Positions 1,762 to 20,030 of a stretch of DNA of 64,000 nucleotides are shown here, piece by piece; positions within the stretch are counted from its first letter, which is position 1, and each line of letters begins with the position of its first letter. The notes beneath the pieces are model-generated. The model worked only from the letters and a program-made list of their open reading frames with translations, had not been told where the DNA came from and ran no database searches. The stretch is from Spirochaetales bacterium (GTDB taxonomy: Bacteria; Spirochaetota; Spirochaetia; Sphaerochaetales; Sphaerochaetaceae), in assembly GCA_012519115.1 (NCBI GenBank), contig JAAYQW010000065.1:1-64000 (forward strand), given 5' to 3'. The position numbers were made by a program, and so were the translations under genes.

Positions 1762-1937
1762 GAATATGACTCCTCTTATCTCCTTTGTTGTACCGCAAAT
1801 ATGAAATAATGACAACAGAGGGCAGAGAGTCATGACACTGAAGAAGGGTGTTTAAAATGCCTGCAATAGCTATATAATTCAACAAAACAAGCTTATATTT
1901 TTGCCTAAACACTTGAATCCAAGTCAGCTTGTCTTCC

Positions 1938-3872
1938 TTAGAAAATATTTCCTGTCTCCCTATAAGAACGCCATACGTTTTCAAAAAAGTCGTTGTCTTC
2001 AGGGATTGGATGGACTTCACGCCAATGAGCTTCGCAATCCTTTCCATTGAAGCGTATCTCTTGGACCATTGAACCCAAGCGATTGTCATCAAGACTGAAC
2101 CTGAATTCCTCCGGGAGCTTCTCATGAGGTTTGCAACCAACAGGATCCGAGTACAGTGCGCTTCCCCGACTTTTTCCTCCATGGTCGATGTAGTCAAGCA
2201 TTGCCCAGAGGTAGACATACTGGCTTATCAGGCAATCCCTGATGATCATAGCATTCGGGAATTCCTGAATGCTCTTTATTTTTACAGCAGAGTAAAAGGA
2301 GCGAAGCAACTGACCGATCTTCTCCTTCACCGGGGAAATATCATGTGAATTCCGCAGTGCAGAACCCACTCTGCTCATTTCGGACGTAGCATATGCATAG
2401 AGCCCGTCGATGTTCGAGCTGTCGCTCATGATTCCTTCCAAGCAAGTGTTCAGGCACATCAGCTTCTGCTGTACTGCCTTCGAGAAGGCTTTTTGATTCA
2501 CCTTGCGGCGGTTTTTTGAGACATATTCGGCAGCTCTGATCGATCCCACCTGTCCGGCATTGAGAGCGCTGCCCCCAGGTCTGTACACACCATGACTTGC
2601 TGCAAGCTCCCCAACAGCGAATAGTCCATGAATATTTGTCTGCCACCAGCAATCAACTGCGAGACCACCATTGTTGTGTTGTACGCAAAGGGCAATCTCA
2701 AGCAGTTCTTTTTCCAGGTCGACGCCATTTTCCTTGTAGAAAGCGATTGCAGGGCTGTTCATCACTCTGAGTCTTTCAATCGGAGTGCCAAAACAGACCT
2801 TGGCCTGCTCCAGGTACATTCTGGCCTCAACCGGCAAAGAAGAAAAATCCACGTCTTTACATCCGGGATTGTTCCTGTAGTCAAGAAATACTCTTCTGTT
2901 CTGTGAAGTTTCAATATGGACAAGAATATCAATCAATGAGCTGAAACGCGCTTTTCTGACATCAAAAGGCCATTGATATCCTTTCAAAAAAACACTTGCC
3001 AGCATCTCGTTTCTTGAATTGAAATACGGGAGCAGGAACTCGCGTTCATCCCCTCCATCCACGTCGGTAGAAACAAATCTGGGCAATACTTGCATATAAG
3101 AGCCTGACACGTTCCATCTTGGATTCAAAGAACTCAATCCGCATTGCCATTCGGTCAGGTTTCTGCCTTTCGCTCCAGCCTCGAATGCCATGCCTGTGGC
3201 ACCATGCTGGGAAACGGGATAGACGGAATTCAGATACATCCCGGATGGTCCACCTGTAGCTTGGATGATATTTGCAGTGCGGATGATGATAAACTTTTCG
3301 TTGATCTTGTCAAAGCACAGCAAGCCCTGCACCCCACCAAGGTCATCGCAGGAATCGTTCAGATACCGGAAAGCCAGCGTCATATCAAGGACACGGACGT
3401 GTTTTGAAACGACATCTCGTTCAAGACATTCGGTCATCTTTTTTGAAGTATAGGGGCCTATGCTTGTAGCCCGGGATCTTGGATCATGGTCTGTCTTATA
3501 ACCCACATACTCACCCCAGCGGTTTTTGGGAAATGGGACACCTAATTCGACAAGTCGAAAAAATCCATGAGCGCTTAGAGCCGCTTCGCAGAGCGCTATG
3601 TCTCCATCTACACATTGCCCTTCAAACAAAGTCCTTGCCATCTCTCTGATGCTATCGGGAGAATCTCCAGCGAGGGAAAGCTTATAATATGTCTGTTTGT
3701 CGCTTCCAGTATTCCGAGAAGTTCCAGCTTGCATATCTTCTGTAACCAGGAGGACGTCGGTAACACCAAAATCAATAAGTTTTGCGGCAGCGTTCAGCCC
3801 GGATGCTCCGGATCCGATCACCGCTACATCACAATCGATTATTTGAATGTCGTCGATAGTAATAGATTTCAT
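1938..3872 (-). CDS. FAD-dependent oxidoreductase, fumarate reductase/succinate dehydrogenase flavoprotein-like
   Basis: N-terminal VIGSGASGLNAAAKL dinucleotide-binding motif; C-terminal AMLDYIDHGGKSRGSALYSD typical of FrdA/AprA-like flavoproteins. Confidence 0.8.
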   Translation of the reverse strand: MKSITIDDIQIIDCDVAVIGSGASGLNAAAKLIDFGVTDVLLVTEDMQAGTSRNTGSDKQTYYKLSLAGDSPDSIREMARTLFEGQCVDGDIALCEAALSAHGFFRLVELGVPFPKNRWGEYVGYKTDHDPRSRATSIGPYTSKKMTECLERDVVSKHVRVLDMTLAFRYLNDSCDDLGGVQGLLCFDKINEKFIIIRTANIIQATGGPSGMYLNSVYPVSQHGATGMAFEAGAKGRNLTEWQCGLSSLNPRWNVSGSYMQVLPRFVSTDVDGGDEREFLLPYFNSRNEMLASVFLKGYQWPFDVRKARFSSLIDILVHIETSQNRRVFLDYRNNPGCKDVDFSSLPVEARMYLEQAKVCFGTPIERLRVMNSPAIAFYKENGVDLEKELLEIALCVQHNNGGLAVDCWWQTNIHGLFAVGELAASHGVYRPGGSALNAGQVGSIRAAEYVSKNRRKVNQKAFSKAVQQKLMCLNTCLEGIMSDSSNIDGLYAYATSEMSRVGSALRNSHDISPVKEKIGQLLRSFYSAVKIKSIQEFPNAMIIRDCLISQYVYLWAMLDYIDHGGKSRGSALYSDPVGCKPHEKLPEEFRFSLDDNRLGSMVQEIRFNGKDCEAHWREVHPIPEDNDFFENVWRSYRETGNIF

Positions 3873-3881
3873 CTTTTCCTC

Positions 3882-4673
3882 TCATAAGTGCCTGATGTGG
3901 AATCCTCCGTCAACATCAATATAGTTGCCGGTAGTGTACTTGAATTTATCACTGCAGAAGGCACTGACTACCAACGCTACATCCTCAGGAGTCCCCCATC
4001 GGGCGATCGGAAATTCACCACGGGCAATCAAGTCATCATATTTTGCCTGCACGGTGCTTGTCATGTCCGTGGCAATCACGCCAGGTCGTACTTCATGAAC
4101 GAAAATGCTCTCTGAAGCCAACCTGTCGGCGTACAGCTTTGTGAGCATGCTCACACCCGCCTTGCTCACGCAGTATTCGCCACGGTTAGGACTGGAAACC
4201 TCTGCTGAGCATGAAGAAATATTGACTATCGTGCCTCTCTTCCCATCTTCAACCGGTTGTTTCAACATCTGCTTTACGACAACCTGAGTGACAAACATAT
4301 TGCCCTTGGTATTGATTCCAATCACGCGATCAAAGCTTTCCTCGGTCATCTCCAGAAGATCTGCCCGGGCAAGGGGTGCCACCCCTGCATTATTGACAAG
4401 TACATGGATGCCGCCAAAATGCATGACTGCTTCATTGACCAACCGCATCCGGTCTTCGTGAAGAGCAAGGTTTCCTCTTACATATATATAATCAATACGC
4501 TCTTTCTTGAACTTTTCCAAGCTGTTACATGATGCTTCAGGAGAGGTTGCAAATAGAACGATGTTGAAACCATCCTTGCCAAGTTGCAAGGCGATTGCAT
4601 TACCGATCCCTCGGCTTGCACCTGTTATTATCGCAGTTTTTTTCACAGTTTTCCCCTTTCCTGTTGGAAACAC
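3882..4673 (-). CDS. SDR family oxidoreductase (3-oxoacyl-ACP reductase-like)
   Basis: TGASRGIG cofactor motif, NNAG, YCVSK active site, Rossmann fold pattern. Confidence 0.9.
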   Translation of the reverse strand: MFPTGKGKTVKKTAIITGASRGIGNAIALQLGKDGFNIVLFATSPEASCNSLEKFKKERIDYIYVRGNLALHEDRMRLVNEAVMHFGGIHVLVNNAGVAPLARADLLEMTEESFDRVIGINTKGNMFVTQVVVKQMLKQPVEDGKRGTIVNISSCSAEVSSPNRGEYCVSKAGVSMLTKLYADRLASESIFVHEVRPGVIATDMTSTVQAKYDDLIARGEFPIARWGTPEDVALVVSAFCSDKFKYTTGNYIDVDGGFHIRHL

Positions 4674-6064
4674 TTCTCCCTGCTGTCCGCATCGGCTCGA
4701 GCGGCTTTGTACAAAGGCAGATATGTTTCGCTATCACGAACGACACACCCAGTGATTCCATGGTCTCTCATGATCTGAGTACACTTTGAACAAGTTATAC
4801 AGCATTTGTTGGGTTTCATGAAACCGGACTTTAAAATATCTGCCGGAGCATCAGGATATGCCAAGCTGGAACGTCCTAATCCAACGACAGACGCTCTTCC
4901 ATCCTTGATGTTTGCACTTGCGGCATATGGCACAAAATTTCGCAACCACGAATATCCACTTCCAACTACCGGTACAGAGACAGCCTGCTGTATCGCTGCT
5001 GCAAGCAAGAATTGTCTCTGGACACTTTCGAGGGGGTGCTCGTCCGGAATTGGGATTCCCATGCTGGAGGTGTCGAAAGGACGCGTTACATTGGCTTGGA
5101 TAAAATAGGGATTTCCAGCAGTGATGCAGAAGAGGTCGACACCATCGGTCTGCATAATTTTGGCCAACGCAAGAGGCTCTGACAGATCGAGCTCCCACAT
5201 GTTGTGCTCACTGCAGCCAAATCCGTACGGATATGGATGTGCATCATATGCGTTTAGCCGGCTTGCAATAATAAAATCTGTTCCTGCTTCATTACGAACA
5301 GCTTGAACGATTTCACGAATCAAGGCTATGCGGTTTTCAAAGCTGCCGCCATACTCGCCTGTGCGATTCCTGGCAGCAACAAGTTCGCTGAGCAGGTACC
5401 GATGGCAGACTTTAATGTCAACTCCATCAAACCCTGCTTGTTTCGCAAGCTTGGCACTCATTACATAGTGTTCCACCAGAGACCTCAGATAATCATCTGA
5501 GACAATATGGCTATCGTCATCCGGTGCAATACCGCTTCTTGGATCAAGGATTGGATCGTGCTGGATGATCATGGGCTGGGCTATATGCCCCTTCGGACGA
5601 CAATAACGCCCGGAATGAGTAAGCTGAAGGATATGCAATGGCCTGAATCCATGACCAAAACGTTCCGCTGAAGCATTTCGCACATTCGTAAGCAACTGTT
5701 TGAACTGATCACGGTTACTGGAGGTGAGCATCATTTGCCTTTCGTTTGCTTTGGCCTCAGGCAGGATGGAGCATGCTTCCCACCAAACAAGTCCGGATCC
5801 GCCTCGAGCGAAACGCAGGTATCGTCTTGCCGTGAGGTTTGAGGGAGATCCGTCGAGGTTTGAGTCACAACCCTCCATAGGAAGCACGCAGAATGAGTTT
5901 GGAGCAAGACGGTTCCCTACTTTCACCGGAGTCTTGAGCACAGACAGGTCCTCATCAAATCTTATGTCCAGCCCAAGAATATCCACTTTGGTTTTGATTT
6001 CTTCCAATGACTTGTAGTTGAATTTCTCATGCGCCACGATGGGGTTCTCCTTTTTCAAACACAT
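4643..6064 (-). CDS. NADH:flavin oxidoreductase, Old Yellow Enzyme family with Cys cluster
   Basis: OYE TIM-barrel pattern (QLTHSGRYCRPKG, GFDGVDIKVCHRYLLSE, GGSFENRIALIREIV), C-terminal CCITCSKCTQ...C; no C-terminal pyridine-nucleotide domain. Confidence 0.85.
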   Translation of the reverse strand: MCLKKENPIVAHEKFNYKSLEEIKTKVDILGLDIRFDEDLSVLKTPVKVGNRLAPNSFCVLPMEGCDSNLDGSPSNLTARRYLRFARGGSGLVWWEACSILPEAKANERQMMLTSSNRDQFKQLLTNVRNASAERFGHGFRPLHILQLTHSGRYCRPKGHIAQPMIIQHDPILDPRSGIAPDDDSHIVSDDYLRSLVEHYVMSAKLAKQAGFDGVDIKVCHRYLLSELVAARNRTGEYGGSFENRIALIREIVQAVRNEAGTDFIIASRLNAYDAHPYPYGFGCSEHNMWELDLSEPLALAKIMQTDGVDLFCITAGNPYFIQANVTRPFDTSSMGIPIPDEHPLESVQRQFLLAAAIQQAVSVPVVGSGYSWLRNFVPYAASANIKDGRASVVGLGRSSLAYPDAPADILKSGFMKPNKCCITCSKCTQIMRDHGITGCVVRDSETYLPLYKAARADADSREKCFQQERGKL

Positions 6065-6075
6065 ATCTGATAAAG

Positions 6076-8364
6076 CTATTCATAACAATCCTTTTCCCGA
6101 CGCACATCAACATACGGACAATACAGCGCACAGCGCTCGACTATCGGAGCAAAGTTCGAGATTTGAAGACGGTCGCTCGAGATTACCGCCTCTTTAAGAA
6201 CCTCTGGCGTAATTTCCCGAGGTACGGGGATGTCCGTGATGCTGCCGAGGTATTTTGGACCTTCATCGCCTAAAAGTCCGTATTGTGCCGCCCAGTCGCA
6301 ACGCAATTGATCAATAGCGGAGCAACGGTATGTTTCCCCTTCGATGCTAAGCTCGACTGTTTCTCCGGTAAGCGCCTGGGCAGGACACTCTCTCACACAG
6401 ACATTACAAGCATGGCACACAAGTCCCTCGATGTGCTTCAATGTATCAAAAGCTATCTCCGCATCGGTGATGACTGCTGCATAACGCACGTGACTCGCAT
6501 ATTTTTCCGTGATGGCAAGACGGTTTTTTCCAAGATCCGCCAGTCCTGCACAGACAGCGGCAATGTGGTTGGCACCGAGGGAAGGAAACTGCCATGCATA
6601 GCTTACAGGTGCCAAACCATCCAGATTCATCGATACTGCGGCGTGATATCCATGATCAATCAATCCAAGTGCGATTGTATTAGCGATTGCTTCACATTGG
6701 AGCACCAATTCTTTATGGACGGTAACCGCATAGTGAACAGCTTTCTGGGCAGGAGGTTCCAGAACGTTCTTCACACTTCCTCGTAAAGCAGGAAGACCTA
6801 TCACGATGACGCTCTTAGCATGCTTAATATAGGATTCCGGCCGCTTGGAGACACGACGGATATTGATGATGGTGGGATTTTTTGGTTTTCCCTTCATTTC
6901 AATAGTGCGTGATGCGCGCAAGCCCCATCCCTGTTCCTTTGAAATGAAATATTCTTCATTGGAATAGAGTTCATCAAGTTGCTGGGCAACCTCATCCAAT
7001 CGTGACACGGGGCTTACCCCATGAAGCGGTGCATCTTCCTGTTCAGCAATAGTTGCAATCATCTGGCGTAAATCATCAAATTTCGTATGCAGGCCGGTAT
7101 CGATGACTTGATCTTCAATGGGAAGACTGGTAAGCATCACATGCATTTTCAGGAAATCCGTTGAAATTCCGGCATATTCTGCCAGCTTCTGCCCATGAAT
7201 GCCACTTTCGACCAGTGTGTCGAAGCCAAGATCGATCTCCTGCTTTCGTGCTATCCAAAGGGCATTTCGTTGGGCAGTACGAAGAGTCGAAACTTCAGCA
7301 CCGGGAGCAAAACACTGGGCGATAACCACTGCCCCATGACAAGTGGGAAGCACATTTGGAAAAAAACCCAGTATTTTCAACGTTTTCTCGCTTACGCAGA
7401 TAAGCTTGTCAATTCCAATGGTACGGGCGGTTTGCTCCATGTGCGTCATGGCGCGTTCAAGTCCGGTCTTGGAAGTGTCGGCAATCACTTGTCTCCGTCG
7501 TCGTGGCGAGGAACAAAAGCTTCGATCGAAATATCTTTTATTACGTGGCACACAATATTTTAAACACATGCCCATTTTCCACGTGAAGCGTTTTGACGGA
7601 TCTCCATGGGCAGCATCCTCACACAGATCAAGCACCACATCCTCTGTGGTGTGCTCGGGATACTCCATGAAACTGTCAAGCTGGAAGTTTTCTCCCATTG
7701 CGCAACGCCACAGATTCTTATTTGGAAAAGTAAATCGCCGTTCTCCAATGTCGACTGAAAGCATACCGTCGACTTCTTTTTCGAATGCTTTTGGAGGACA
7801 ATGCTTTTCACAAAGTTTGCATTGGTCACAAAGCGGCGTTCCGCTGTACATGGGAGAGTGATCGAGAGGCGCGTTGGTCATTACTGTCACAAGACGTATG
7901 CGAGGACCGAATTCAGGTGTAAGGCAGATATTGTTCCACCCTATCTCCCCCAATCCTGCAGCGACAGCAGCATAATAATGTGTGATATCTCCGGAGAACC
8001 CTCTAGGGGAGGCGTCATTAGCCCTATAGTTCCACCATCCGGTCGATGGCGTAAAAAGTGCCTGATAACCAAGGCTTTCAATGTACCGGCAAAGCCTGTA
8101 GGCGGCAAAATTGCAATGTTCGCTGGCAATATGGTTGGAAACCGCTGGTCCTGGATATCGTGGGTCCGGGGTTCCTCCCAGTTCAATGCAACTGTCAAGG
8201 TAATGGATTCCCATGCTTATCGTGGCTCGACAATCAGCCATCTGAGCCATGGGCGTGCGGGAAAATGGAGCGCTGTCCCAGCGTTTCGGGTCTCCTATTC
8301 CTACCAAGTCTGCTCCGAAACGACGAGCTGCGGAAAGAATCTTTTCAGTCAAAGTATCAGTCAT
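6076..8364 (-). CDS. Tandem double-domain QueG (epoxyqueuosine reductase)-like 4Fe-4S protein
   Basis: Two halves each with a CxxCxxCxxxCP motif (CDQCKLCEKHCPPKAF; CHACNVCVRECPAQAL) and the GLGEIGWNNICLTPEFGPR/GLADLGKNRLAITEKYASHVR block; start at ATG 8364 with GGAGGAG upstream preferred over TTG 8397. Confidence 0.75.
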   Translation of the reverse strand: MTDTLTEKILSAARRFGADLVGIGDPKRWDSAPFSRTPMAQMADCRATISMGIHYLDSCIELGGTPDPRYPGPAVSNHIASEHCNFAAYRLCRYIESLGYQALFTPSTGWWNYRANDASPRGFSGDITHYYAAVAAGLGEIGWNNICLTPEFGPRIRLVTVMTNAPLDHSPMYSGTPLCDQCKLCEKHCPPKAFEKEVDGMLSVDIGERRFTFPNKNLWRCAMGENFQLDSFMEYPEHTTEDVVLDLCEDAAHGDPSKRFTWKMGMCLKYCVPRNKRYFDRSFCSSPRRRRQVIADTSKTGLERAMTHMEQTARTIGIDKLICVSEKTLKILGFFPNVLPTCHGAVVIAQCFAPGAEVSTLRTAQRNALWIARKQEIDLGFDTLVESGIHGQKLAEYAGISTDFLKMHVMLTSLPIEDQVIDTGLHTKFDDLRQMIATIAEQEDAPLHGVSPVSRLDEVAQQLDELYSNEEYFISKEQGWGLRASRTIEMKGKPKNPTIINIRRVSKRPESYIKHAKSVIVIGLPALRGSVKNVLEPPAQKAVHYAVTVHKELVLQCEAIANTIALGLIDHGYHAAVSMNLDGLAPVSYAWQFPSLGANHIAAVCAGLADLGKNRLAITEKYASHVRYAAVITDAEIAFDTLKHIEGLVCHACNVCVRECPAQALTGETVELSIEGETYRCSAIDQLRCDWAAQYGLLGDEGPKYLGSITDIPVPREITPEVLKEAVISSDRLQISNFAPIVERCALYCPYVDVRREKDCYE

Positions 8365-8393
8365 TAAACTCCTCCATGATATATCTGCCGATC

Positions 8394-9455
8394 TCAATAC
8401 CAGCTCCCGCCGCTGAAGAAATCCACCTCATCGGGCATTTCTTCCCCTGGTCCATACGTTAAACCGTGATACTTTGTAGGCTCTGGTTCTTCTGGCAACT
8501 CCCAGTATTTCATTGGAGCGAAGACTTTCTTTTCAAATGTCTCCTTCAGTTTTCCCCTTATCTCAAGATGCTTCATGCATGCTCTGTGGCACCCGCGGGC
8601 TCCGCAGACAGCCAGATAAAACTCATGGTGAGCCAACGCTGCCAAAGTTGGTTGAGCGTCAAAAAGAGCATGGCCTAAATCATGAGCCTGAAGCCAAGTG
8701 TTTTCCTGCTTTTCCATTGGCATATAGACTCCGGGAAAACGTTTGACAAAAAAGGGACTCGTCTTACGGTCAAAACCAAAATGAGCCTGCTTGCAACGGC
8801 CTGTTTCCAGTTGCACCCACTCCAAGTCGATTCCTTCGAGGGTGCAAGTTACCGTTTCTGTCTTTGACATTGCCCCGGGGCAAGAATTGACGCAAAGTCG
8901 GCAGCGATCACAGATATGAGGGATAGGAATTGGATCGGGATCCAGAGCAAGTTCCGTCAGCACGACGCCTATACGTTGCCGCGGTCCGAATTCCTCTGTA
9001 AGGAATACCTTCGAATACCCTATCTCACCCAGACCTGCTAAAAAGGCGGCAATCCTATGATGGACGCTGACTTCTCGTCTGGCTTTACCTTCAACGGCAT
9101 TTCCACGTGGTCCTCGCTCGGGAACGGTAGTTGCAGAAGAAACGACAGCCGCTTCATGACCGGTCTTCTTCTCAATATATTTGGATAGATTATATCCAAT
9201 TTGAACCAACCTTCTCGCAATACCCGTATACCCAAACACGGTATAGCTTGCCCAGTGCGTCCCTTCTTCGATACCACGATAACAACCGCGTGGAATACGA
9301 AGCAGGAAAACAATCACGCTCTTGCAGTTGGGCATGATGTTCTTTGGATCTGAGAAATCCGGTGCATCTTCAAAGCGCTCGATATTTGCAATGCCGATCT
9401 TATCCACACCGAGTTCATTCAATGCATAAGCCTTTATCTGATCGGAAGTAAGCAT
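8394..9455 (-). CDS. QueG-like 4Fe-4S double cluster protein
   Basis: GLGEIGYSKVFLTEEFGPRQRIGVVLTE and CDRCRLCVNSCPGAMS. Confidence 0.8.
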   Translation of the reverse strand: MLTSDQIKAYALNELGVDKIGIANIERFEDAPDFSDPKNIMPNCKSVIVFLLRIPRGCYRGIEEGTHWASYTVFGYTGIARRLVQIGYNLSKYIEKKTGHEAAVVSSATTVPERGPRGNAVEGKARREVSVHHRIAAFLAGLGEIGYSKVFLTEEFGPRQRIGVVLTELALDPDPIPIPHICDRCRLCVNSCPGAMSKTETVTCTLEGIDLEWVQLETGRCKQAHFGFDRKTSPFFVKRFPGVYMPMEKQENTWLQAHDLGHALFDAQPTLAALAHHEFYLAVCGARGCHRACMKHLEIRGKLKETFEKKVFAPMKYWELPEEPEPTKYHGLTYGPGEEMPDEVDFFSGGSWY

Positions 9456-9456
9456 G

Positions 9457-10272
9457 CTAGCTCTCCTCCCTTCTGAACGAATTTACATATTTGTACTTGA
9501 GAACGTCACGTTTCTCCAATGCGGCCACACAGGCACGTCCGCAGGCTGCTGCGATGCGCCAAGGCTCGGCAGTTGCAAGATACGGATTTGGTGAAGCCCC
9601 CGTATGGCAAATGAGACAGCTTTCCACAGCCAACCGATGCCATCTCACATCTTTTCCCATCACCTTCATCTCACTCCATTCCCGCATGGACAATGCGTGG
9701 GAAGGACATGCGTCGATACATGCGGTGCAGTTTTTGCACAAGTCGTACCATACCATCTCGCTTGGTTCGATTTCAGCGTCCGTGATAATGATGCTGAATA
9801 CCTGTCTGGGACCGAATTCAGGTGTGAGAAAAAGCTTACCATCGCCTATCTGGCCAAGACCCGCAACCATTGCCGCATAATCAAAATTAAGAAGTACGTC
9901 GGGTGCCGGTTTATCTTTCGACACCGGAACACCTTGGCTGCGCAACTCAAGAGGGTGTTTGTAAAGCGGAGTGGATTCTGCACCCAAATTCTCCAAATAA
10001 CGTGTCAGGTCATAGGTGGTCTTGACGAGAATCAAGGGTTGGACAGGATCCCCTGCACCCATGGTATGCCAAGCCGTATTTTCTTCGACTCCCCGTAATG
10101 CTCCGCGAGTAATCATGAATCCGAGCACGATGACGCTCTTTGCTTCGGGATTAATTGAACAAGGATGTCCTTGAGCAGGGAGCCCGTCAAATCTTGAGAC
10201 AGGTGCGACCCCAAACAGATCGGCACCATAGTTCATCGCCATTTTTCGTACGTCGTCATAACCTAATTTCAT
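9457..10272 (-). CDS. QueG-like 4Fe-4S protein
   Basis: MKLGYDDVRKMAMNYGADLFGVAPVSRF...GLGQIGDGKLFLTPEFGPRQVFSIIITDAEI...CKNCTACIDACPSHAL; start at ATG 10272. Confidence 0.8.
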   Translation of the reverse strand: MKLGYDDVRKMAMNYGADLFGVAPVSRFDGLPAQGHPCSINPEAKSVIVLGFMITRGALRGVEENTAWHTMGAGDPVQPLILVKTTYDLTRYLENLGAESTPLYKHPLELRSQGVPVSKDKPAPDVLLNFDYAAMVAGLGQIGDGKLFLTPEFGPRQVFSIIITDAEIEPSEMVWYDLCKNCTACIDACPSHALSMREWSEMKVMGKDVRWHRLAVESCLICHTGASPNPYLATAEPWRIAAACGRACVAALEKRDVLKYKYVNSFRREES

Positions 10273-10295
10273 GATTTCAACCCCAATTCCTAATG

Positions 10296-10322
10296 TGGGC
10301 TGCCACCCTTGGTGACAGCCCA
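10296..10322. promoter_or_regulatory. Intercistronic hairpin between tctC and QueG-like gene
   Basis: TGGGCTGCCACC-CTT-GGTGACAGCCCA: 12-bp stem with one mismatch, 3-nt loop. Confidence 0.7.
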
Positions 10323-10345
10323 TTTTTACGCCATTCACATCCTCT

Positions 10346-11332
10346 TTACTTAGCAGCGAGTCCCATGCTCTTTATTGTCTCGCCAAAGTCCTTGAACTGC
10401 TTCTCTATGGTCAATTGAGTCTCAGCACCATCAAGATAGTCAGGTTTTTGCTTATTCTTCGCCAGAAGCGCCGCCAGTTCAGGAGACTGGATTACTTCCC
10501 TCCAGACTCCGCGCATCTTCTCGACCAACGAGTCGGGAGTGCTTGCAGGGACAAGAAGCGAGGTCCATGGTGCAAAACTCAGATCGAAGCCAAGCTCCTT
10601 GAGTGTGGGGACATTCGGCAGGGAAGCTGCACGCGTGTCACTGAATAAGGCGAGGACCTTGACTTGTCCGGCAGCTATCTGGCCGGCGGCGACGTCATAG
10701 CTTCCGGGAACTCCAAGGTCGGATACCCCGCCCAGGACTGCGGTGAGGTTCTCGGTGTCGTTATTGACAGGATAGACTCTGAACTGGGCTCCGGTCATGT
10801 CGGCCAATCTTTGGAACAAGATGTTCTGAAGACCGCCCTGAGGGCATGATACAAGGTATTTGCCCGGGTTTGCCTTGGCGTCTTGTATGAAATCGGTGAT
10901 TGTGTTCCAAGGCTTGTCCGCTGTGCAGATTATTCCCATATCGCGGCTGCACACCTGTCCGATTGCCTTGAAATTCGCAGGGGAATACGCAAGACCCATG
11001 GTATGCGGCAGAACTGCCAAAGCGTTGATGGTGCCAACCAACAATGTGTATCCGTCTCCTTTCGTAGATAGAGCGACTTCCTGTGTTCCGATCGTACTGC
11101 CACCACCTTCACGGTTTACCACGACAACCGGACTTCCGAACCGAGCCTCGGCCACTGATGCGATGGCGCGGGCGGTGATGTCCGTTGAACCACCCGCAGC
11201 CCATGGGCAGATCAGCGTCACGGGTCCGGTGGGATATTCCACTTCAGCCGAAACAGCCTCCTTGGACCCCTGCGCAAATGCGCATGGCAGCACCAATACC
11301 AACAAAAACAATGCCACGATGACTTTTTTCAT
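10346..11332 (-). CDS. tctC: Tripartite tricarboxylate transporter substrate-binding protein (TctC family)
   Basis: Signal peptide MKKVIVALFLLVLVLPCAFAQG; YPTGPVTLICPWAAGGSTDITARA typical of TctC. Confidence 0.93.
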   Translation of the reverse strand: MKKVIVALFLLVLVLPCAFAQGSKEAVSAEVEYPTGPVTLICPWAAGGSTDITARAIASVAEARFGSPVVVVNREGGGSTIGTQEVALSTKGDGYTLLVGTINALAVLPHTMGLAYSPANFKAIGQVCSRDMGIICTADKPWNTITDFIQDAKANPGKYLVSCPQGGLQNILFQRLADMTGAQFRVYPVNNDTENLTAVLGGVSDLGVPGSYDVAAGQIAAGQVKVLALFSDTRAASLPNVPTLKELGFDLSFAPWTSLLVPASTPDSLVEKMRGVWREVIQSPELAALLAKNKQKPDYLDGAETQLTIEKQFKDFGETIKSMGLAAK

Positions 11333-11398
11333 TTTTCTTCCTCCATTTTACATTGCTAAGCGCCTATTAAACGCCGTTGCTAAAAAGTTATTTATTCT

Positions 11399-12892
11399 TT
11401 ACTTTTGTTTTTTTGCTTTCATGAGCTTCCAAAAATTGGATCCAACCATGAGAACGATGATTATCACAAATGCGATTGCAATCGGACTGCCCACAAAGAT
11501 TGAAAGGTTATTTTCGCTCTTGATGAGGCTTTGCAGCAGTGATCGTTCCATCTGCGATCCAAGAATGAAACCGATCAACGTCGGAGCTATCGGCATATCG
11601 ATGCGCTTGTAGATGTAACCGAGGACTCCTGCGATTATCATGACCAGGACATCATACATGGTATTGTTCATAGAGTAGCTTCCTGCAAAACAGATGATCA
11701 TGATGACCGGGAACAGGATGCCCTTGGGCACATTCAGGACATTGGTGAGCGTCCTGCATAAGATTTTCCCCAATACAAGCATAAAGATGGAGCAAATGAA
11801 CAATGTGACGTACAACCCTGTAATCATGTCGCCCTGCTGCGTGAATACAAGCGGTCCCGGTGTGATTCCCTGAAGAACCAAAGCTCCGTACATGATGGCT
11901 GTTATCGTGTCGCCGGGTATGCCTAACGTAAGCAGTGGTATGTACGCCGCACCACAGACGCCATTGTTTGCAGCTTCCGATGCGCAGATACCTTCGACAG
12001 ATCCTTCGCCAAACTCCTCGGGGTGTTTGGATGAGCGTTGAGCCATGCTGTAACTGATGAAAGATGCCGTGGACGGACCACTCCCGGGAAGAGCTCCGAT
12101 GAATACTCCGATCAGACTGGATCTGATGAGCGTACGCCAATAGGAAAAGAATTCCTTCAATGAAAGGCGTGATTTCTTATCTTGAGGGACATCAACCGAC
12201 TTTCCTTCAGCCTTTGCATGACAGAAATTGGAATATTCAACAAAGATTTCGGAAAGCGCGAACATGCCAACGAGTGTCGGAATAAGCGTCACTCCGCTGA
12301 GCATGTTGATGTTCCCAAAAGTGAAGCGCGGGGATCCTGTCATCGGATCCATGCCGAGCATCGCCAAGGACAAACCGATGATGGACGCCAACAGGCCTTT
12401 AAGCAAGGATGATGAGCCGACAAGACTGACTACGACGAGTGCGAACACCACAAGAAGCGTATTTTCAGATGGGCCGAACTTGAGTGCGAACTGGGCAAGC
12501 CAAGAAGCGGTCAGGATAAGGATTGTGTTGCCCACTACATCGGCGAAAACCGATGCATACAAAGCAGCATCCAAGGCTTTCTTGGCTTGGCCTTTCTTTG
12601 CCATCGCATAGCCGTCGCGAACAGTACATGCAGCAGCAGGGGTACCGGGGACACCTAAAAGCACTGCTGAAACCGATCCGCCATAAATCCCGTTTTTATA
12701 GACTGCTGATAAAAGGGCAAGCGCTTCGACAGGTTCAAGATAGAATGTAATCGGAATCGCAATGGCTACAGCCAGCGTGGTGTTGAGTCCGGGAATTGCC
12801 CCGACAATCATGCCGAATAGACTTCCGGCAAGTATCAAAAGAAGTATCTTGAGTGTGAATGTGCTCTGAACTATCAACAAGAAAGATGCCAT
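11399..12892 (-). CDS. tctA: Tripartite tricarboxylate transporter permease (TctA family)
   Basis: Multi-TM; GAIPGLNTTLAVAIAIPITF, GALPGSGPSTASFISYSMAQRSSKHPEEFGEGSVEGICASEAANN signature. Confidence 0.95.
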   Translation of the reverse strand: MASFLLIVQSTFTLKILLLILAGSLFGMIVGAIPGLNTTLAVAIAIPITFYLEPVEALALLSAVYKNGIYGGSVSAVLLGVPGTPAAACTVRDGYAMAKKGQAKKALDAALYASVFADVVGNTILILTASWLAQFALKFGPSENTLLVVFALVVVSLVGSSSLLKGLLASIIGLSLAMLGMDPMTGSPRFTFGNINMLSGVTLIPTLVGMFALSEIFVEYSNFCHAKAEGKSVDVPQDKKSRLSLKEFFSYWRTLIRSSLIGVFIGALPGSGPSTASFISYSMAQRSSKHPEEFGEGSVEGICASEAANNGVCGAAYIPLLTLGIPGDTITAIMYGALVLQGITPGPLVFTQQGDMITGLYVTLFICSIFMLVLGKILCRTLTNVLNVPKGILFPVIMIICFAGSYSMNNTMYDVLVMIIAGVLGYIYKRIDMPIAPTLIGFILGSQMERSLLQSLIKSENNLSIFVGSPIAIAFVIIIVLMVGSNFWKLMKAKKQK

Positions 12893-12913
12893 GAACCACC
12901 CCCATAATATGTG

Positions 12914-13375
12914 TCAGATGAGGATTCCGGTCGGCATGAAAATTCTCATGCCAACAGTAAATGCCAGATAAATTGAAACCGGGGTAAGTACCGAGGTAAG
13001 CAGGATCTTCCACCAGCATCTGTTGTTCCACATCAACATCATGTAGGCAATCACAATCACCGAGCTGGTATAAAATCCTAAGGTTTTTGTCCCGAAATAG
13101 AGCATGAGACTGGCAAGCACCATCGGCCATATCCCGAGATCGAAAGTGAATTCATTCTTACGGAATGTCAGAGCAAAACCCAAGGCTAGCAGCATCGCGC
13201 AGATACACACGAAATAAGGATACAAGCGGGCGTTGGTCAAATGACCCTGTGTCATGCGTACCTGGGAAGGAATCAACAATGTCAATACAAGATATACTGC
13301 AGCGATTGCCAATCCCACCGCTATCCCGGGGACGGTAACTAAGCCTTTAAGCTTAATTCTATCCTTCTTTTCCAT
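12914..13375 (-). CDS. tctB: Tripartite tricarboxylate transporter small subunit (TctB family)
   Basis: Four-TM small protein directly upstream of tctA. Confidence 0.8.
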   Translation of the reverse strand: MEKKDRIKLKGLVTVPGIAVGLAIAAVYLVLTLLIPSQVRMTQGHLTNARLYPYFVCICAMLLALGFALTFRKNEFTFDLGIWPMVLASLMLYFGTKTLGFYTSSVIVIAYMMLMWNNRCWWKILLTSVLTPVSIYLAFTVGMRIFMPTGILI

Positions 13376-13436
13376 CAGGTCCCTCCTTTCATTCTACGAA
13401 GTCACATGGGATTATTCCTTAATGAACTATGATTTC

Positions 13437-13475
13437 ATTATACCTTCAAGCTGCTACAATGATATACTAAGTATA
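13437..13475 (-). promoter_or_regulatory. Putative AraC-dependent promoter region of tct operon
   Basis: TATAAT -10 (minus) at 13437-13442, no good -35, palindrome TATACT-A-AGTATA at 13463-13475 next to the -35 position. Confidence 0.45.
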
Positions 13476-13513
13476 AATCAAAAATATGCAACTTTTGCTT
13501 TTGGAGAAATACT

Positions 13514-14344
13514 GTGTCAGAATTCAATGCCTATAAACCACTTGGTGAAGACCGTTCGAAACTTATTCATCACAACCATGATTGTCACGAATTGGTCTTA
13601 GTGGAATCAGGTCAAGTTTCGTTCTCAATAGAAAACACCATCTGCGAGGCCGGTCCGCATTCTTTGGTAATCATCGGCAATCTTGAACGTCACCACATAC
13701 ATGTAAAAAAAGAGCCCTATCAACGCAGAGTCATGCTGATTCCGAATGCGTTTCTCACAGAAAAAATTCGAATGCCCCAATTGGTCTCATTTTTCCTTTA
13801 TCGTCCAAAAGGATTCAAACACGTCATACAACTTGATGATGACCTGTATCATAAGCTTGAAAAGATTTTTGACAAAATCATCGAAGAGTTCAAAGCCAAC
13901 CTGCGGCTCAAGGAACTGCGCCTGGAGGTTCTTCTCGAACTGCTGCTTATAGATTTATTCCGAGGCAAACACGAATACTTCTCATGGGAGAATCGAGAGG
14001 ACATGAACATTGTATATCAAGTGCAACGTTTCGTATCACAGAACTTTGCTAAGAATATCACTCTATCGGAAACCGCAGAAAAATTCCGTGTAAGCCAGTA
14101 TTATCTTTCACGCCGTTTCCAAAGCATCGCAGGCTATGGATTCCAGCAATACCTCATCTCCTGTCGCTTGAACGAGGCTAAACGTTTACTGATCACCACC
14201 GACCTTCCTGTTTCAATACTGTGTGAACAATGCGGTTATGAAGACACTAACAACTTCATCAGAGCATTTCGTAAACGCGAAGGCATTACCCCGTTGCAAT
14301 ATCGAAAAACCATGAAAGACCATAAGGAGGCAATCCATAATTGA
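13514..14344 (+). CDS. AraC family transcriptional regulator
   Basis: GTG start with GGAG upstream; C-terminal double HTH (FRVSQYYLSRRFQSIAGYGFQQYL...CGYEDTNNFIRAFRKREGITPLQYRK). Confidence 0.92.
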   Translation: MSEFNAYKPLGEDRSKLIHHNHDCHELVLVESGQVSFSIENTICEAGPHSLVIIGNLERHHIHVKKEPYQRRVMLIPNAFLTEKIRMPQLVSFFLYRPKGFKHVIQLDDDLYHKLEKIFDKIIEEFKANLRLKELRLEVLLELLLIDLFRGKHEYFSWENREDMNIVYQVQRFVSQNFAKNITLSETAEKFRVSQYYLSRRFQSIAGYGFQQYLISCRLNEAKRLLITTDLPVSILCEQCGYEDTNNFIRAFRKREGITPLQYRKTMKDHKEAIHN

Positions 14345-14437
14345 TGCGAGAGTTCCAGAGAAGCATCACATGTATCGAACATACCGGCGGAAGATACTGA
14401 AATAGTCATGGGATGAATACATTCGGGTTGAAGTCTT

Positions 14438-15115
14438 TCAGTCATGATTTGGAAAACTGACCGACCACAATGGTATATTCAATGCTGTCCACCTGCCATG
14501 ACTCATGGACATACATATGATCATATCTTCTGGAAGTGTTCCCGGTAATGAAAGAAAAAGCGAGAGAATTCTTATCTTCGGGTTATCCCCTCCCTGTGCG
14601 ATCATATATCGAACCAGCACATCTCGAAGACTACAAGCAGGCTTGTTTCCCATCAACAAGGCCGCTTGTGATCCCCGACCCCGATTGTCATAGAACTCTC
14701 GCTTCTCGGCATAGAGACTGTCGATGCGTGGTTCATTCGCATCGAAGCACATGAAGTCGATGTCCTAGTCCACTCCGGTCAGACTATGAAACGTCAGGAT
14801 TCCGATCTTGCCATGATTGTGCTTAAATGTCGCATCAAGCATCCTTTCGGGAAAAACTGATCTCTCGACAAGAGAACAACTCTCTGCGGTGATATTAAAA
14901 CCAAAAATGGCTACACCAAGCATTCTGTTTCGTCTCTCATGTCTTCCTCTTGGTCTCAGATGAAGGTTGTAATGCGAGGAGTCTGCAGAGACAAATGATG
15001 CAAGACATGCAACCGGCAAGATACCCGCTATTTCATTTGGATCCGATCGAGATGAGATGTTCCATTGAATTAGTTGCAGCTGCATGGTTTGTTCCCATCA
15101 TCGTTTTCCTTGCGA
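14438..15115 (-). pseudogene. Degraded LacI-type regulator remnant
   Basis: Out-of-frame fragments: TNHAAATNSMEHLISIGSK*NSGYLAG (compare LacI DN..GA..AVEHLISLGHRRIGYLAG) and, in another frame broken by TAG at 14765-14767, RMLDATFKHNHGKIGILTF...*...LPEDMIICMSMSHGRWTALNIPLWSVSFP. Confidence 0.5.
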
Positions 15116-15128
15116 TAATAGTTTCAAT

Positions 15129-15974
15129 TCAAACGCTATAAGCTTTTTTAGCAAACTTCCTTATCCCCCTATACGCCTCTTCCTGGGCTTCTTTGTTCTT
15201 GTCGTAGGGGATGTAGTGTCCGGCTTCTTCAAGATGAAGGTGGGTGAAAGGACCTTGGATCTTCTCCTTGACCAGGGCGACCACATCGTAGGGGATGATG
15301 GGATCCTTGCCTCCGGTGATGAGGAGGGTGTTCGATTTCAGATCGGAGAGGTCGTTTACCGCTTCTTTGCGGACCTTCTCAAGCTCCAGGAGAGTTTTAG
15401 GAAAAACCCAGGACCAGTACTCGCTTCCTAGGTATTGGTCGTCATCCTCTTCGCTTTCGTAATAAAACGTGTATTCTGGATCGGGCTGCCAGGGGACTGC
15501 GATCTTTTTGACAAACGGGGCAATCAGGCGAACCTTGAAAACGGGAATGAAAGGAATCAGAAGTCCGGGGGCGATGAGAATCACATTGGAGACCGAATAC
15601 TCCTTGGCAAGTGTGACTGCCAGAGCGCCGCCCATCGAGTGACCGACGATCAGCACCTTATCGTACTTCTTCGTCAGATCGTCCATCGCGTTTCTCAGTG
15701 TCCCGATCCAGTCTTTCGCTCTGCTCATCTGAAAATCCGCTCCGCTGGTTCCGTTGCCAGGCAAACGCGGAACATAGATATCGAACCCCTCTTCAAAGAG
15801 CTCCCGCCCCACCCTGATCAGTTCACCGGGATATCCGGCGTATCCGTGGATGAGCAGCGCCGCGTTCTTTGCTTTGGGACGTGTCAATGTAAAGGGCTTG
15901 GCTGCGGTGCGAACCGGTGCCTTGTCTTGATAGAACCCGTTTGACCAAGGTGGGAACTCATAGTTGAGGTTCAT
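15129..15974 (-). CDS. Alpha/beta hydrolase (carboxylesterase/monoacylglycerol lipase-like)
   Basis: GHSMGGALAV nucleophile elbow, HGYAGYPGE oxyanion region, C-terminal H in EEAGHYIPYD. Confidence 0.88.
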   Translation of the reverse strand: MNLNYEFPPWSNGFYQDKAPVRTAAKPFTLTRPKAKNAALLIHGYAGYPGELIRVGRELFEEGFDIYVPRLPGNGTSGADFQMSRAKDWIGTLRNAMDDLTKKYDKVLIVGHSMGGALAVTLAKEYSVSNVILIAPGLLIPFIPVFKVRLIAPFVKKIAVPWQPDPEYTFYYESEEDDDQYLGSEYWSWVFPKTLLELEKVRKEAVNDLSDLKSNTLLITGGKDPIIPYDVVALVKEKIQGPFTHLHLEEAGHYIPYDKNKEAQEEAYRGIRKFAKKAYSV

Positions 15975-16868: not shown

Positions 16869-17507
16869 TTACTTCTTCAATCCCAATTGCTTCTGGTTGC
16901 GGGACAGATCGGCAAGGCCGCAGATCTCGGTAATCTCATTGAGCAGAGCGACCATCCGCGTCGGTTCCAAGCCTGCTTCCGCACGGGTTCGATCATTGTA
17001 CATCGCACCGTTGACGGCGGCTTTGCTCTTTGCCGAGTATAATCGAAGGTGGAAATCGTCCCCGTCGTTGAGGAAGTATTCGCTCGTATAAACATACCCG
17101 TCGATCGCCTTCTCCAGAGCGTTGTTGATCGCCCCCATATCGCGAACAAACGCCCTGGGCTCCTGGAAGTGGAGATAGAACCACAAGGGAAGTCCGGGGA
17201 TGTTCCACGCAAGGTGCACCCGTTTCTTCTCCGCATGTTCAAGCTCGGCACGAACCTCGTGGGCGCTGATGCCCAGATCGGCGAGTCCGAAGACCAGCCA
17301 TACGGTGGTGAAACTTCCGGCATTCCTCTTGCGGGCGGCGATGTTGATCAACTGATGCAGATCTTTGAACACCGCCTGATGTTCGACAGTCATATTGGAA
17401 TAGCGGCAATCTTTACGCATTTGGGAGAAATACAGACTTTCAATCTCACTGGCGGTTACCAACAAGATCGTTTTGCGAGGGGGTTGGGAAAGACGTTTAC
17501 GTGCCAT
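16869..17507 (-). CDS. rloB: RloB-like protein
   Basis: ILLVTASEIESLYFSQMRKD N-terminus (compare ILIVCEGEKTE in RloB), located 2 nt after an AAA15-type ATPase gene. Confidence 0.7.
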   Translation of the reverse strand: MARKRLSQPPRKTILLVTASEIESLYFSQMRKDCRYSNMTVEHQAVFKDLHQLINIAARKRNAGSFTTVWLVFGLADLGISAHEVRAELEHAEKKRVHLAWNIPGLPLWFYLHFQEPRAFVRDMGAINNALEKAIDGYVYTSEYFLNDGDDFHLRLYSAKSKAAVNGAMYNDRTRAEAGLEPTRMVALLNEITEICGLADLSRNQKQLGLKK

Positions 17508-17509
17508 AA

Positions 17510-18757
17510 CTACTCCTTATCGTGTGCACTCTCTCGGTCATAGGAAAACTCCGAGAGGATCGGGAGAGCTCCGAATGCTCCATTCATATACTGAACTTGG
17601 GTCCGGTCGTTAGCTTTCGAATATCGGAAGTTCGCCAAACTGGTGTACACCGTCGCACTCTCGCTGTCCTTCTGGGCGAAATAAACACCGTCGCGGCGGA
17701 GCAGGCCCGGCTTGAGCAAGGATGGATTACAGTCAACGACCAGCATCTGCGAACCGTTCTCATCGTTGTTCGCCTCGAATATCTCGACGATGTGGGTCAG
17801 CACATTCGGATGGAGCAACATTCCAAAGTCATCGATGATAAGGGTCTTGCCCTTGGTGAACGACTCGAAGAACGCCACTCCGATCAAACAGAGCCTTCTG
17901 AGGCTCAAGCTCTCCAGACTGAAATACGAGGCGTAGTGCTGCGTCACGTTGGTGTGAACGAAGATCACCTTGCCGTCTTTGACGCGGATGTCCCGAATAT
18001 CGGTGATATCGACGCTCCACAGGAAGTTGATCAGCTGAGACACCCAGCCGGGATGCTCTTCAATCATTTGAGCCAGGTACTTTTCACTGAGGTTCGAGAC
18101 TCCCATCGGAAGGAGGTGGAGCCGATCGACGATCCACGAGTAGAAGAGGCCGCTCGTCTCGCTGCCCCTTTCCGCAGAGGCTTGAATAAACGTGTGCTTC
18201 TCATCGACTTTGCCGACCAGGCGCTTTTTATCACCCCGATAGTGCTTGCCCCAACGATAGGTATAGGTCAGTTCTTCCTCATCAAGGGCCAGCTCATCTT
18301 CTTTGAGGGTCCGCTCGAACATTCGCCGTTTGGAGCGGCCGATTATGTGATACAGGGATTCTTCATAGATCTTTATCCGATCCGCCACAAGCGTATAGAC
18401 CCCGATGATCGGTTCCCCGTTCTCCTCATCATTGCCCAGGATGCATCGAATGATGATCGTTGCAGGCTGGTTCTTCTCTTCCGAGTATGCAAATGAGGTC
18501 CCGCTGAGAATCGCCAGCGGATTACTTGTTTCTTCCGTTGCGGTTACAATCGCCTTAAGCGCTTCTAAGGCTCGGATGAAGGAGCTTTTACCTGCTCCAT
18601 TCGGGCCGATGATTGCGGCACTCTTGATGAGCTTGAGCTTCTCAGTCACCGAGACTACCTTGGAATCGCTGAACCGGTTATCCCTGACGGCTTCAAACGA
18701 AATAATCTGTTCGTCCCTCACGGATTTGAAGTTCGCAATAGTCATATCAAGCAGCAT
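17510..18757 (-). CDS. rloA: AAA15/RloA-like ATPase
   Basis: MTIANFKSVRDEQIISFEA...AAIIGPNGAGKSSFIRALEALK Walker A; LIIDDFGMLLHPNVLTHIVEIF Walker B-like. Confidence 0.8.
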   Translation of the reverse strand: MLLDMTIANFKSVRDEQIISFEAVRDNRFSDSKVVSVTEKLKLIKSAAIIGPNGAGKSSFIRALEALKAIVTATEETSNPLAILSGTSFAYSEEKNQPATIIIRCILGNDEENGEPIIGVYTLVADRIKIYEESLYHIIGRSKRRMFERTLKEDELALDEEELTYTYRWGKHYRGDKKRLVGKVDEKHTFIQASAERGSETSGLFYSWIVDRLHLLPMGVSNLSEKYLAQMIEEHPGWVSQLINFLWSVDITDIRDIRVKDGKVIFVHTNVTQHYASYFSLESLSLRRLCLIGVAFFESFTKGKTLIIDDFGMLLHPNVLTHIVEIFEANNDENGSQMLVVDCNPSLLKPGLLRRDGVYFAQKDSESATVYTSLANFRYSKANDRTQVQYMNGAFGALPILSEFSYDRESAHDKE

Positions 18758-19505: not shown

Positions 19506-20030
19506 TCAAAATTCAATCATCGGCCGGGCTTCAACCCCGTTATTCGCCATATGGTGCTTCACTTCACAGACATCACTTGCCATGTCTGAAGCCGCAATCA
19601 ACGCTTCGGGCGCACCTCGACCGGTAATTACGAGGTGGGGAAACTTCTCATCATGCTCATGCTCGGCGATAAAGGAAACGACCTCTTCCACGTCGATGTA
19701 TCCTAAGGTTAGTGGATAGGTGAATTCATCCAGAACAATCAGATCGTACGCCCCACTTGATGCCCATCGTTTTACCGCTTTCCATCCTTCGGAGGCAAGG
19801 GTTCGATTTTTCTCGTCATTGCCTTCAATCCAAGTAAAACCGGCACCGAACGATTTCCACTCCACTCCGAGCTCTTTGAGTATCCGTGCCTCGCCGCTGT
19901 TAAGCAGATCGGGTTCCTGTTTGATGAACTGGGCAAACGCCACCTTCGCTTCGTGACCAAGGGCTCGAACGGCCTGCCCTACCGCGGCAGAGGTCTTGCC
20001 TTTGCCATCGCCGGTATAGAGTAACACCAT
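19506..20030 (-). CDS. cobO: Cob(I)yrinic acid a,c-diamide adenosyltransferase
   Basis: MVLLYTGDGKGKTSAAVGQAVRALGH P-loop and LIVLDEFTYPLTLGYI typical of CobA/CobO/BtuR. Confidence 0.93.
   Translation of the reverse strand: MVLLYTGDGKGKTSAAVGQAVRALGHEAKVAFAQFIKQEPDLLNSGEARILKELGVEWKSFGAGFTWIEGNDEKNRTLASEGWKAVKRWASSGAYDLIVLDEFTYPLTLGYIDVEEVVSFIAEHEHDEKFPHLVITGRGAPEALIAASDMASDVCEVKHHMANNGVEARPMIEF

Follow-up and report, generated by a model that had tools for sequence, protein, structure and literature searches.

We examined a 64,000-nucleotide stretch of DNA from a Spirochaetales bacterium of the family Sphaerochaetaceae (contig JAAYQW010000065.1 of assembly GCA_012519115.1, positions 1 to 64,000, forward strand; hereafter the window). 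Its source is a metagenome-assembled genome (MAG) of 1.7 Mb that is 83% complete. Near the left end of the window nine minus-strand genes follow one another in the order TctB-TctA-TctC-RDHc-RDHb-RDH2-OYE-SDR-FrdA-like, and the gene for an AraC-family regulator diverges from them (Table 1). RDHb, RDHc and RDH2 denote three iron-sulfur (Fe-S) proteins akin to reductive dehalogenases (RDH; the RdhA family), OYE an Old Yellow Enzyme-type flavoprotein and SDR a short-chain dehydrogenase/reductase. An earlier note, made from the letters without database searches, had described this arrangement, and all ten open reading frames (ORFs) were recovered with the coordinates and strands it gave. Pfam and NCBIfam models match TctA, TctB, TctC, the SDR, the OYE (PF00724), the FrdA-like protein (FAD_binding_2) and the AraC regulator. 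Judged from their sequences, nine long, intact and co-oriented ORFs of matching families far exceed what chance would be expected to give.

The junctions are short or slightly overlapping, much as the note had said (4–30 nt or overlaps), except that TctA and TctC lie 66 nt apart, the widest gap in the operon; the others are 1–29 nt or small overlaps. The gaps are 21 nt for TctB-TctA, 7 nt for TctC-RDHc (counted from the GTG start of RDHc), 1 nt for RDHc-RDHb, 11 nt for RDH2-OYE and 9 nt for SDR-FrdA. RDH2 begins either 29 nt after RDHb, from an ATG preceded by a good ribosome-binding site, or with a 4-nt overlap, from a TTG; OYE and SDR overlap by 4 nt if the SDR starts at GTG 4646. Purine-rich ribosome-binding sites precede several of the genes. 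The regulator and TctB are separated by 138 bp, and scans of the locus for promoters and terminators gave no matches above the shuffled background.

Table 1. The operon, its regulator and the surrounding island (coordinates are those of the window)
Feature	Position	Strand	Basis
Island, most likely horizontally acquired	~1882-15100 (right edge approximate)		congener synteny, end of sister homology, third-position GC (GC3)
FrdA-like FAD protein, 644 aa	1938-3872	-	PF00890; alignment of 17-protein family
SDR, 263 aa; probable start GTG 4646	3882-4673	-	NF009386
OYE-type FMN protein, 473 aa	4643-6064	-	PF00724; alignment
RDH2, triple-repeat Fe-S protein, 773 aa; probable start ATG 8364	6076-8397	-	TIGR02486 (sub-threshold), AlphaFold model, tree
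RDHb, RdhA-like Fe-S protein, 353 aa	8394-9455	-	fold search; dyad position
RDHc, RdhA-like partner, 293 aa; possible start ATG 10272	9457-10338	-	clade support; alignment
TctC, substrate-binding protein	10346-11332	-	PF03401, 146.5 bits
TctA, large permease	11399-12892	-	PF01970, 482.7 bits
TctB, small permease	12914-13375	-	PF07331, 48.1 bits
Divergent intergenic region, putative operator and promoters	13376-13513		sequence and consensus scan only
AraC-family regulator with AraC_binding domain	13514-14344	+	PF12833, PF02311

The three Fe-S proteins, called QueG-like in the earlier note, do belong to the superfamily that holds RdhA and the epoxyqueuosine reductase QueG, but they appear nearer to RdhA by score and form a three-component family of their own in a tree. 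Against the reductive dehalogenase model (TIGR02486, cut-off 160.35) RDH2 scores 78.8 bits and the other two 35.9 and 38.3 bits; against the QueG model (TIGR00276, cut-off 200) the trio scores 55, 27.7 and 34.3 bits. The RDH score is the higher in each protein, and by these cut-offs none of the three is a member of either family. No TIGR00276 match above the cut-off was found anywhere in the incomplete genome. A profile of single-domain RDH proteins matched RdhA and QueG structures first. For RDHb and RDH2 we used AlphaFold models of moderate confidence (predicted local distance difference test, pLDDT, 70.7 and 71.9), and all 46 matches with E ≤ 1e-3 in a search of PDB folds are RdhA or QueG. 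The next matches of the RDHb model are the B12 chaperones MMACHC and CblD, and the best matches of the RDH2 model are to the catabolic dehalogenase NpRdhA. Because the template-modeling (TM) scores are low (about 0.4 for RDHb, lower for RDH2), the folds place the proteins in the superfamily but do not resolve finer features. The 773 amino acid RDH2, which had been taken for a single QueG-like protein, is by model and alignment a fusion of three QueG/RDH-type folds, with Fe-S motifs in repeats 1 and 3.

A first Fe-S motif, CxxCxxCxxxC, is found in 86 of the 90 rows of the RDH family alignment; the trio shares it, together with the superfamily core, with QueG and with RdhA (PceA, NpRdhA, BhbA; CxxCxxCxxxCP), and the nitroreductase-type corrinoid fold plus ferredoxin of RdhA is predicted for RDHb and RDH2. 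The canonical second Fe-S motif of RdhA, in contrast, occurs in none of these 86 rows, nearly all of which have C-x(20-95)-CxxxC instead; one Cys of the second set of QueG is also missing, and each Fe-S unit has seven conserved Cys. A Tyr-Lys catalytic dyad has been described for NpRdhA (PMC7565698). The position of its Lys488 is occupied by Arg in RDHb (R161) and RDH2 and by Val in the RDHc of the window. RDHb has a GYT motif whose Y76 is a plausible candidate for the dyad Tyr; this motif resembles the GYSKM of a genuine RdhA from a genome of the same class (locus L014), with different spacing. RDHc has no GY motif, and both dyad residues are missing from it. Also unlike RdhA, the set has three components, one of them a triple-repeat fusion; none of the translations shows a twin-arginine (Tat) leader, and the island lacks an RdhB-like gene. 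From these motifs we infer that RDHb is the likely catalytic subunit, with RDHc and RDH2 as partners.

RDHb, RDHc and the N- and C-terminal parts of RDH2 fall into four separate clades of a 94-row tree with 99–100% bootstrap support (99/98 for the RDHc clade), and QueG lies outside the family. Since each part sits in its own supported clade, the parts are old. The clades are mainly from Verrucomicrobiota and Lentisphaerota. When RDH2 was compared with 84,980 species genomes, 17 loci emerged at about 29–39% identity, mostly in the Planctomycetes-Verrucomicrobia-Chlamydiae (PVC) group, Clostridia and Spirochaetes. RDHb/RDHc genes adjoin RDH2 in several genomes, and all six genomes checked, each found through one RDH part, carried the other as well. 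Among 241 Verrucomicrobiota-side genomes RDH2 is present in 24, RDHb/c in 43 and both in 16, compared to 4.3 expected (Fisher p = 2e-8, kinship ignored). Many of the b/c sets are IclR-RDHc-(RDHc')-RDHb operons that include nothing else, and several paralogous sets may occur in one Verrucomicrobiota-side genome. Two further gene families were seen in these neighborhoods: a weakly U32-like protein family with an EVYFPW...GR motif stands repeatedly beside RDHb genes (L105, L158, L186, L197), and in L100 and L157 RDHb/c have Peptidase_M19 genes nearby.

The other enzymes of the operon, OYE, SDR and the FrdA-like protein, form a module that recurs without RDH genes. The FrdA-like protein is indeed a member of the FAD family to which it had been assigned, but its residues indicate that it is not a fumarate reductase. 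Alignment of 17 proteins reveals a sharply defined family with invariant GSDKQT, TDHD, GY(Q/E)WPF, QHxNGG and RPGGxALN motifs. As in FrdA and L-aspartate oxidase, the FAD-binding fold and one substrate Arg (Arg431, the GANR Arg) are kept; unlike them, the protein has Gly245 in place of the catalytic His (QYHPT) and Gln398 at the second His position (HYTxGG), the acid Arg is not conserved, and the capping domain does not align. The OYE has the FMN barrel expected of its family (PF00724, 95.6 bits, cut-off 27) and, like 2,4-dienoyl-CoA reductase, BaiCD and mycofactocin OYE, a [4Fe-4S] motif (CxxCxxCx11C). In contrast to these enzymes, it ends soon after the motif, without the C-terminal NADPH/FAD domain, and Lys218/His221 stand where the classical His/His pair is expected. 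Because that domain is missing, the OYE probably needs an external electron donor. Assignment to BaiCD (bile acids) or to mycofactocin OYE was rejected (70.7 and 109.8 bits; cut-offs 825 and 793). The SDR matches NF009386 with 310.6 bits (cut-off 250) and retains S154, Y167 and K171.

Besides Subdoligranulum (OY725857), where FrdA and OYE show 57–59% identity, the module is found in Bacillota, Verrucomicrobiota and relatives from the same family and phylum. The sets of Subdoligranulum, of L051 and L057 (same family/class) and of the Verrucomicrobiota loci L182 and L183 contain the same three families, in the same order in several cases; they differ from the window in having, instead of RDH genes, leucine-isoleucine-valine (LIV)-type ATP-binding cassette (ABC), tripartite ATP-independent periplasmic (TRAP) or other transporters and sugar-acid enzymes. 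Neighbors of the module include 2-keto-3-deoxygluconate (KDG) kinase and/or 2-keto-3-deoxy-6-phosphogluconate (KDPG) aldolase (L052, L127, L132, L181, L183), an IlvD/Edd dehydratase (L032, L052, L125, L134), ThuA and Gfo/Idh/MocA (L058-L064), and a TRAP transporter with a coenzyme A (CoA) transferase (L033, L124). Since the module often has one of the first three, the kinase, the aldolase or the dehydratase, beside it in relatives, these neighborhoods point, purely by association, to sugar-acid-like, not aromatic, substrates; the aromatic, halogenated or polycyclic acid guessed at in the earlier note received no direct support. Members of the FrdA-like family also occur in other settings. In E. 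coli (NZ_CP135245; L033:5847-14812) a distant one lies between ytfB and rplI with an SDR, a TIM-barrel protein, an enoyl-CoA hydratase, a CoA transferase and a TRAP transporter, a cluster whose function we did not find in the literature searched. Members among unrelated genes, with no OYE or SDR nearby, were seen in several genomes of the phylum of a Clostridia MAG (L126, L128-L130, L133, L135).

TctA, TctB and TctC are adjacent and all exceed their Pfam cut-offs, as for a TctABC tripartite tricarboxylate transporter; TctC is similar to the terephthalate-binding protein and to other TctC structures. A TctABC set also adjoins the genuine RdhA mentioned above (L014:4119-9751; TIGR02486, 218.6 bits), which has no obvious Tat signal.

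The operon is most likely part of an accessory, horizontally acquired island. In four congeners gltX DNA is directly joined to the region of an alpha/beta hydrolase (esterase), whereas in the window about 13 kb separate gltX (292-1833) from this gene (15129-15974). GC3 is 0.50 in the island compared to 0.64 in 15 other genes of the window, and RDH2 was not found in the other searched genomes of the genus or family. In the closest sister genome (gltX 96% identical) homology ends at base 1881 of the window; the gltX junction there holds another insert, a pair of AbiL-like ATPases, so that this site appears to be variable. A search for repeats around the island found no clear insertion ends. A plasmid origin was considered and rejected, RDHb having no match among 72,556 plasmids. 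By PADLOC the pair at the sister junction (L070:315-2330) is AbiLi/AbiLii-like, and the window has a different pair of this kind shortly beyond the right edge of the island (16869-18757).

Do the two enzyme modules belong together? The earlier note had proposed looking for their conserved co-occurrence: each module is conserved and the two co-occur at the genome level, whereas the complete order of nine genes turned up in the window alone. Of the 241 Verrucomicrobiota-side genomes 71 carry the FrdA-like family, among them 33 of the 43 that bear RDHb/c, compared to 12.7 expected (p = 1e-12, kinship ignored), and in one genome (G809, L186) an RDHb gene and a FrdA-like gene are about 2 kb apart. 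Thirty-four FrdA-bearing genomes have no RDH genes. A search of 30 other genomes for RDHb/c found RDH genes in three, two of them FrdA-bearing, and none on the FrdA contig. The search for the full operon also covered 100 relatives (with RDH2), 296 genomes of the phylum and 349 of the phylum of the Clostridia MAG (with FrdA).

In our view the locus as a whole is best explained as a horizontally acquired, AraC-controlled catabolic operon that imports and reduces an organic acid, a proposal we hold to be evenly balanced between right and wrong. Its reductive organic-acid part, already suggested in the earlier note, is supported in outline. The AraC regulator would sense the substrate, and TctABC would import a carboxylate, probably polyhydroxylated or sugar-acid-like. 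In some presumed order of steps, OYE, SDR and the FrdA-like protein would interconvert C-OH, C=O and C=C groups, the SDR oxidizing or reducing an alcohol/ketone and the two flavoenzymes acting on an enone/enoate. RDHb, RDHc and RDH2 may form a complex that carries out a corrinoid/Fe-S-dependent reductive cleavage of a C-O or C-halogen bond, with RDHb as the probable catalytic subunit and RDHc and RDH2 as structural or electron-transferring partners. Several points weigh against this proposal. Cobalamin binding is read solely from the fold, in models with pLDDT of 71–72 and TM-scores of about 0.4 or lower, and a family without the canonical second Fe-S motif could have a different chemistry. 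The island has no KDG kinase, aldolase or dehydratase, the sugar-acid reading resting on relatives. The co-occurrence counts ignore phylogeny and may mean no more than that certain clades are rich in both families, and the full nine-gene arrangement was found in no second genome. It is tempting to go further and regard the trio as a new multi-subunit corrinoid/Fe-S reductase that removes oxygen, not halogen, from sugar-acid-like or other polyhydroxylated carboxylates and that occurs widely in anaerobic Verrucomicrobiota/Lentisphaerota and has been disseminated by gene transfer; in this specific form the idea is tentative and probably not correct.

The RdhA fold of the models, the Arg of RDHb and RDH2 at the dyad position and the GY motif of RDHb would also suit a catabolic multi-subunit dehalogenase comparable to BhbA/NpRdhA-type enzymes, with TctABC importing a halogenated organic acid. 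We keep this in consideration because of the genuine RdhA beside TctABC in L014. We nevertheless consider it rather improbable, given three proteins far under the curated cut-off, the missing second motif, an RDHc devoid of the dyad, the lack of RdhB and Tat signal, and the multiple paralogous sets per Verrucomicrobiota-side genome with no sign of halogenated substrates. Alternatively, the RDH proteins might not be the catalyst, serving instead as a set that handles corrinoids or as a low-potential Fe-S relay of electrons, in either case feeding the OYE and/or the FrdA-like enzyme. An OYE that retains its 4Fe-4S motif and has lost its reductase domain, the seven Cys per Fe-S unit, the B12-chaperone folds among the next-best matches and the co-occurrence with the FrdA-like family all agree with such a role; the stand-alone IclR-regulated RDH operons of Verrucomicrobiota/Lentisphaerota, which have no OYE or FrdA, and the 34 FrdA-bearing genomes without RDH genes speak against it, and we think it unlikely. 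That trio and module are independent, serve no shared pathway and merely happened to be joined on a mobile island seems to us very unlikely: each is found without the other and the full combination was seen once, but here they form a single tightly packed operon in which some genes overlap and the reading frames are intact, their families co-occur genome-wide, and an RDHb and a FrdA-like gene are close neighbors in L186. CoA-dependent dearomatization found no support, as the island encodes neither a CoA ligase nor a CoA transferase, and organohalide respiration was rejected (no Tat signal, no RdhB). The quinate/shikimate pathway was considered since the OYE could reduce a cyclic enone; a literature search gave nothing, and the pathway is neither supported nor excluded.

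Searches of the open-access literature turned up no account of the RDH trio or the OYE-SDR-FrdA module, and neither they nor related loci revealed the whole combination as described, in agreement with the earlier note, which had not recognized it as a described pathway. What is new is the three-component RdhA-like system and its combination with OYE-SDR-FrdA; in outline the operon resembles known reductive pathways. To our knowledge, dehalogenation and tRNA modification are essentially the only biological roles known in the RdhA/QueG superfamily. A separate three-component branch in regulated catabolic operons, co-occurring with flavoenzymes that are linked to sugar-acid genes, would, if true, extend B12-dependent reduction to the ordinary carbon metabolism of anaerobes. 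Because all parts share one operon with a dedicated transporter, the window is useful for a substrate search through TctC and the AraC regulator. To the right of the island the window also encodes a protein similar to cob(I)yrinic acid a,c-diamide adenosyltransferase (19506-20030; 171 bits, below the cut-off of 185), which suggests corrinoid use by the host.

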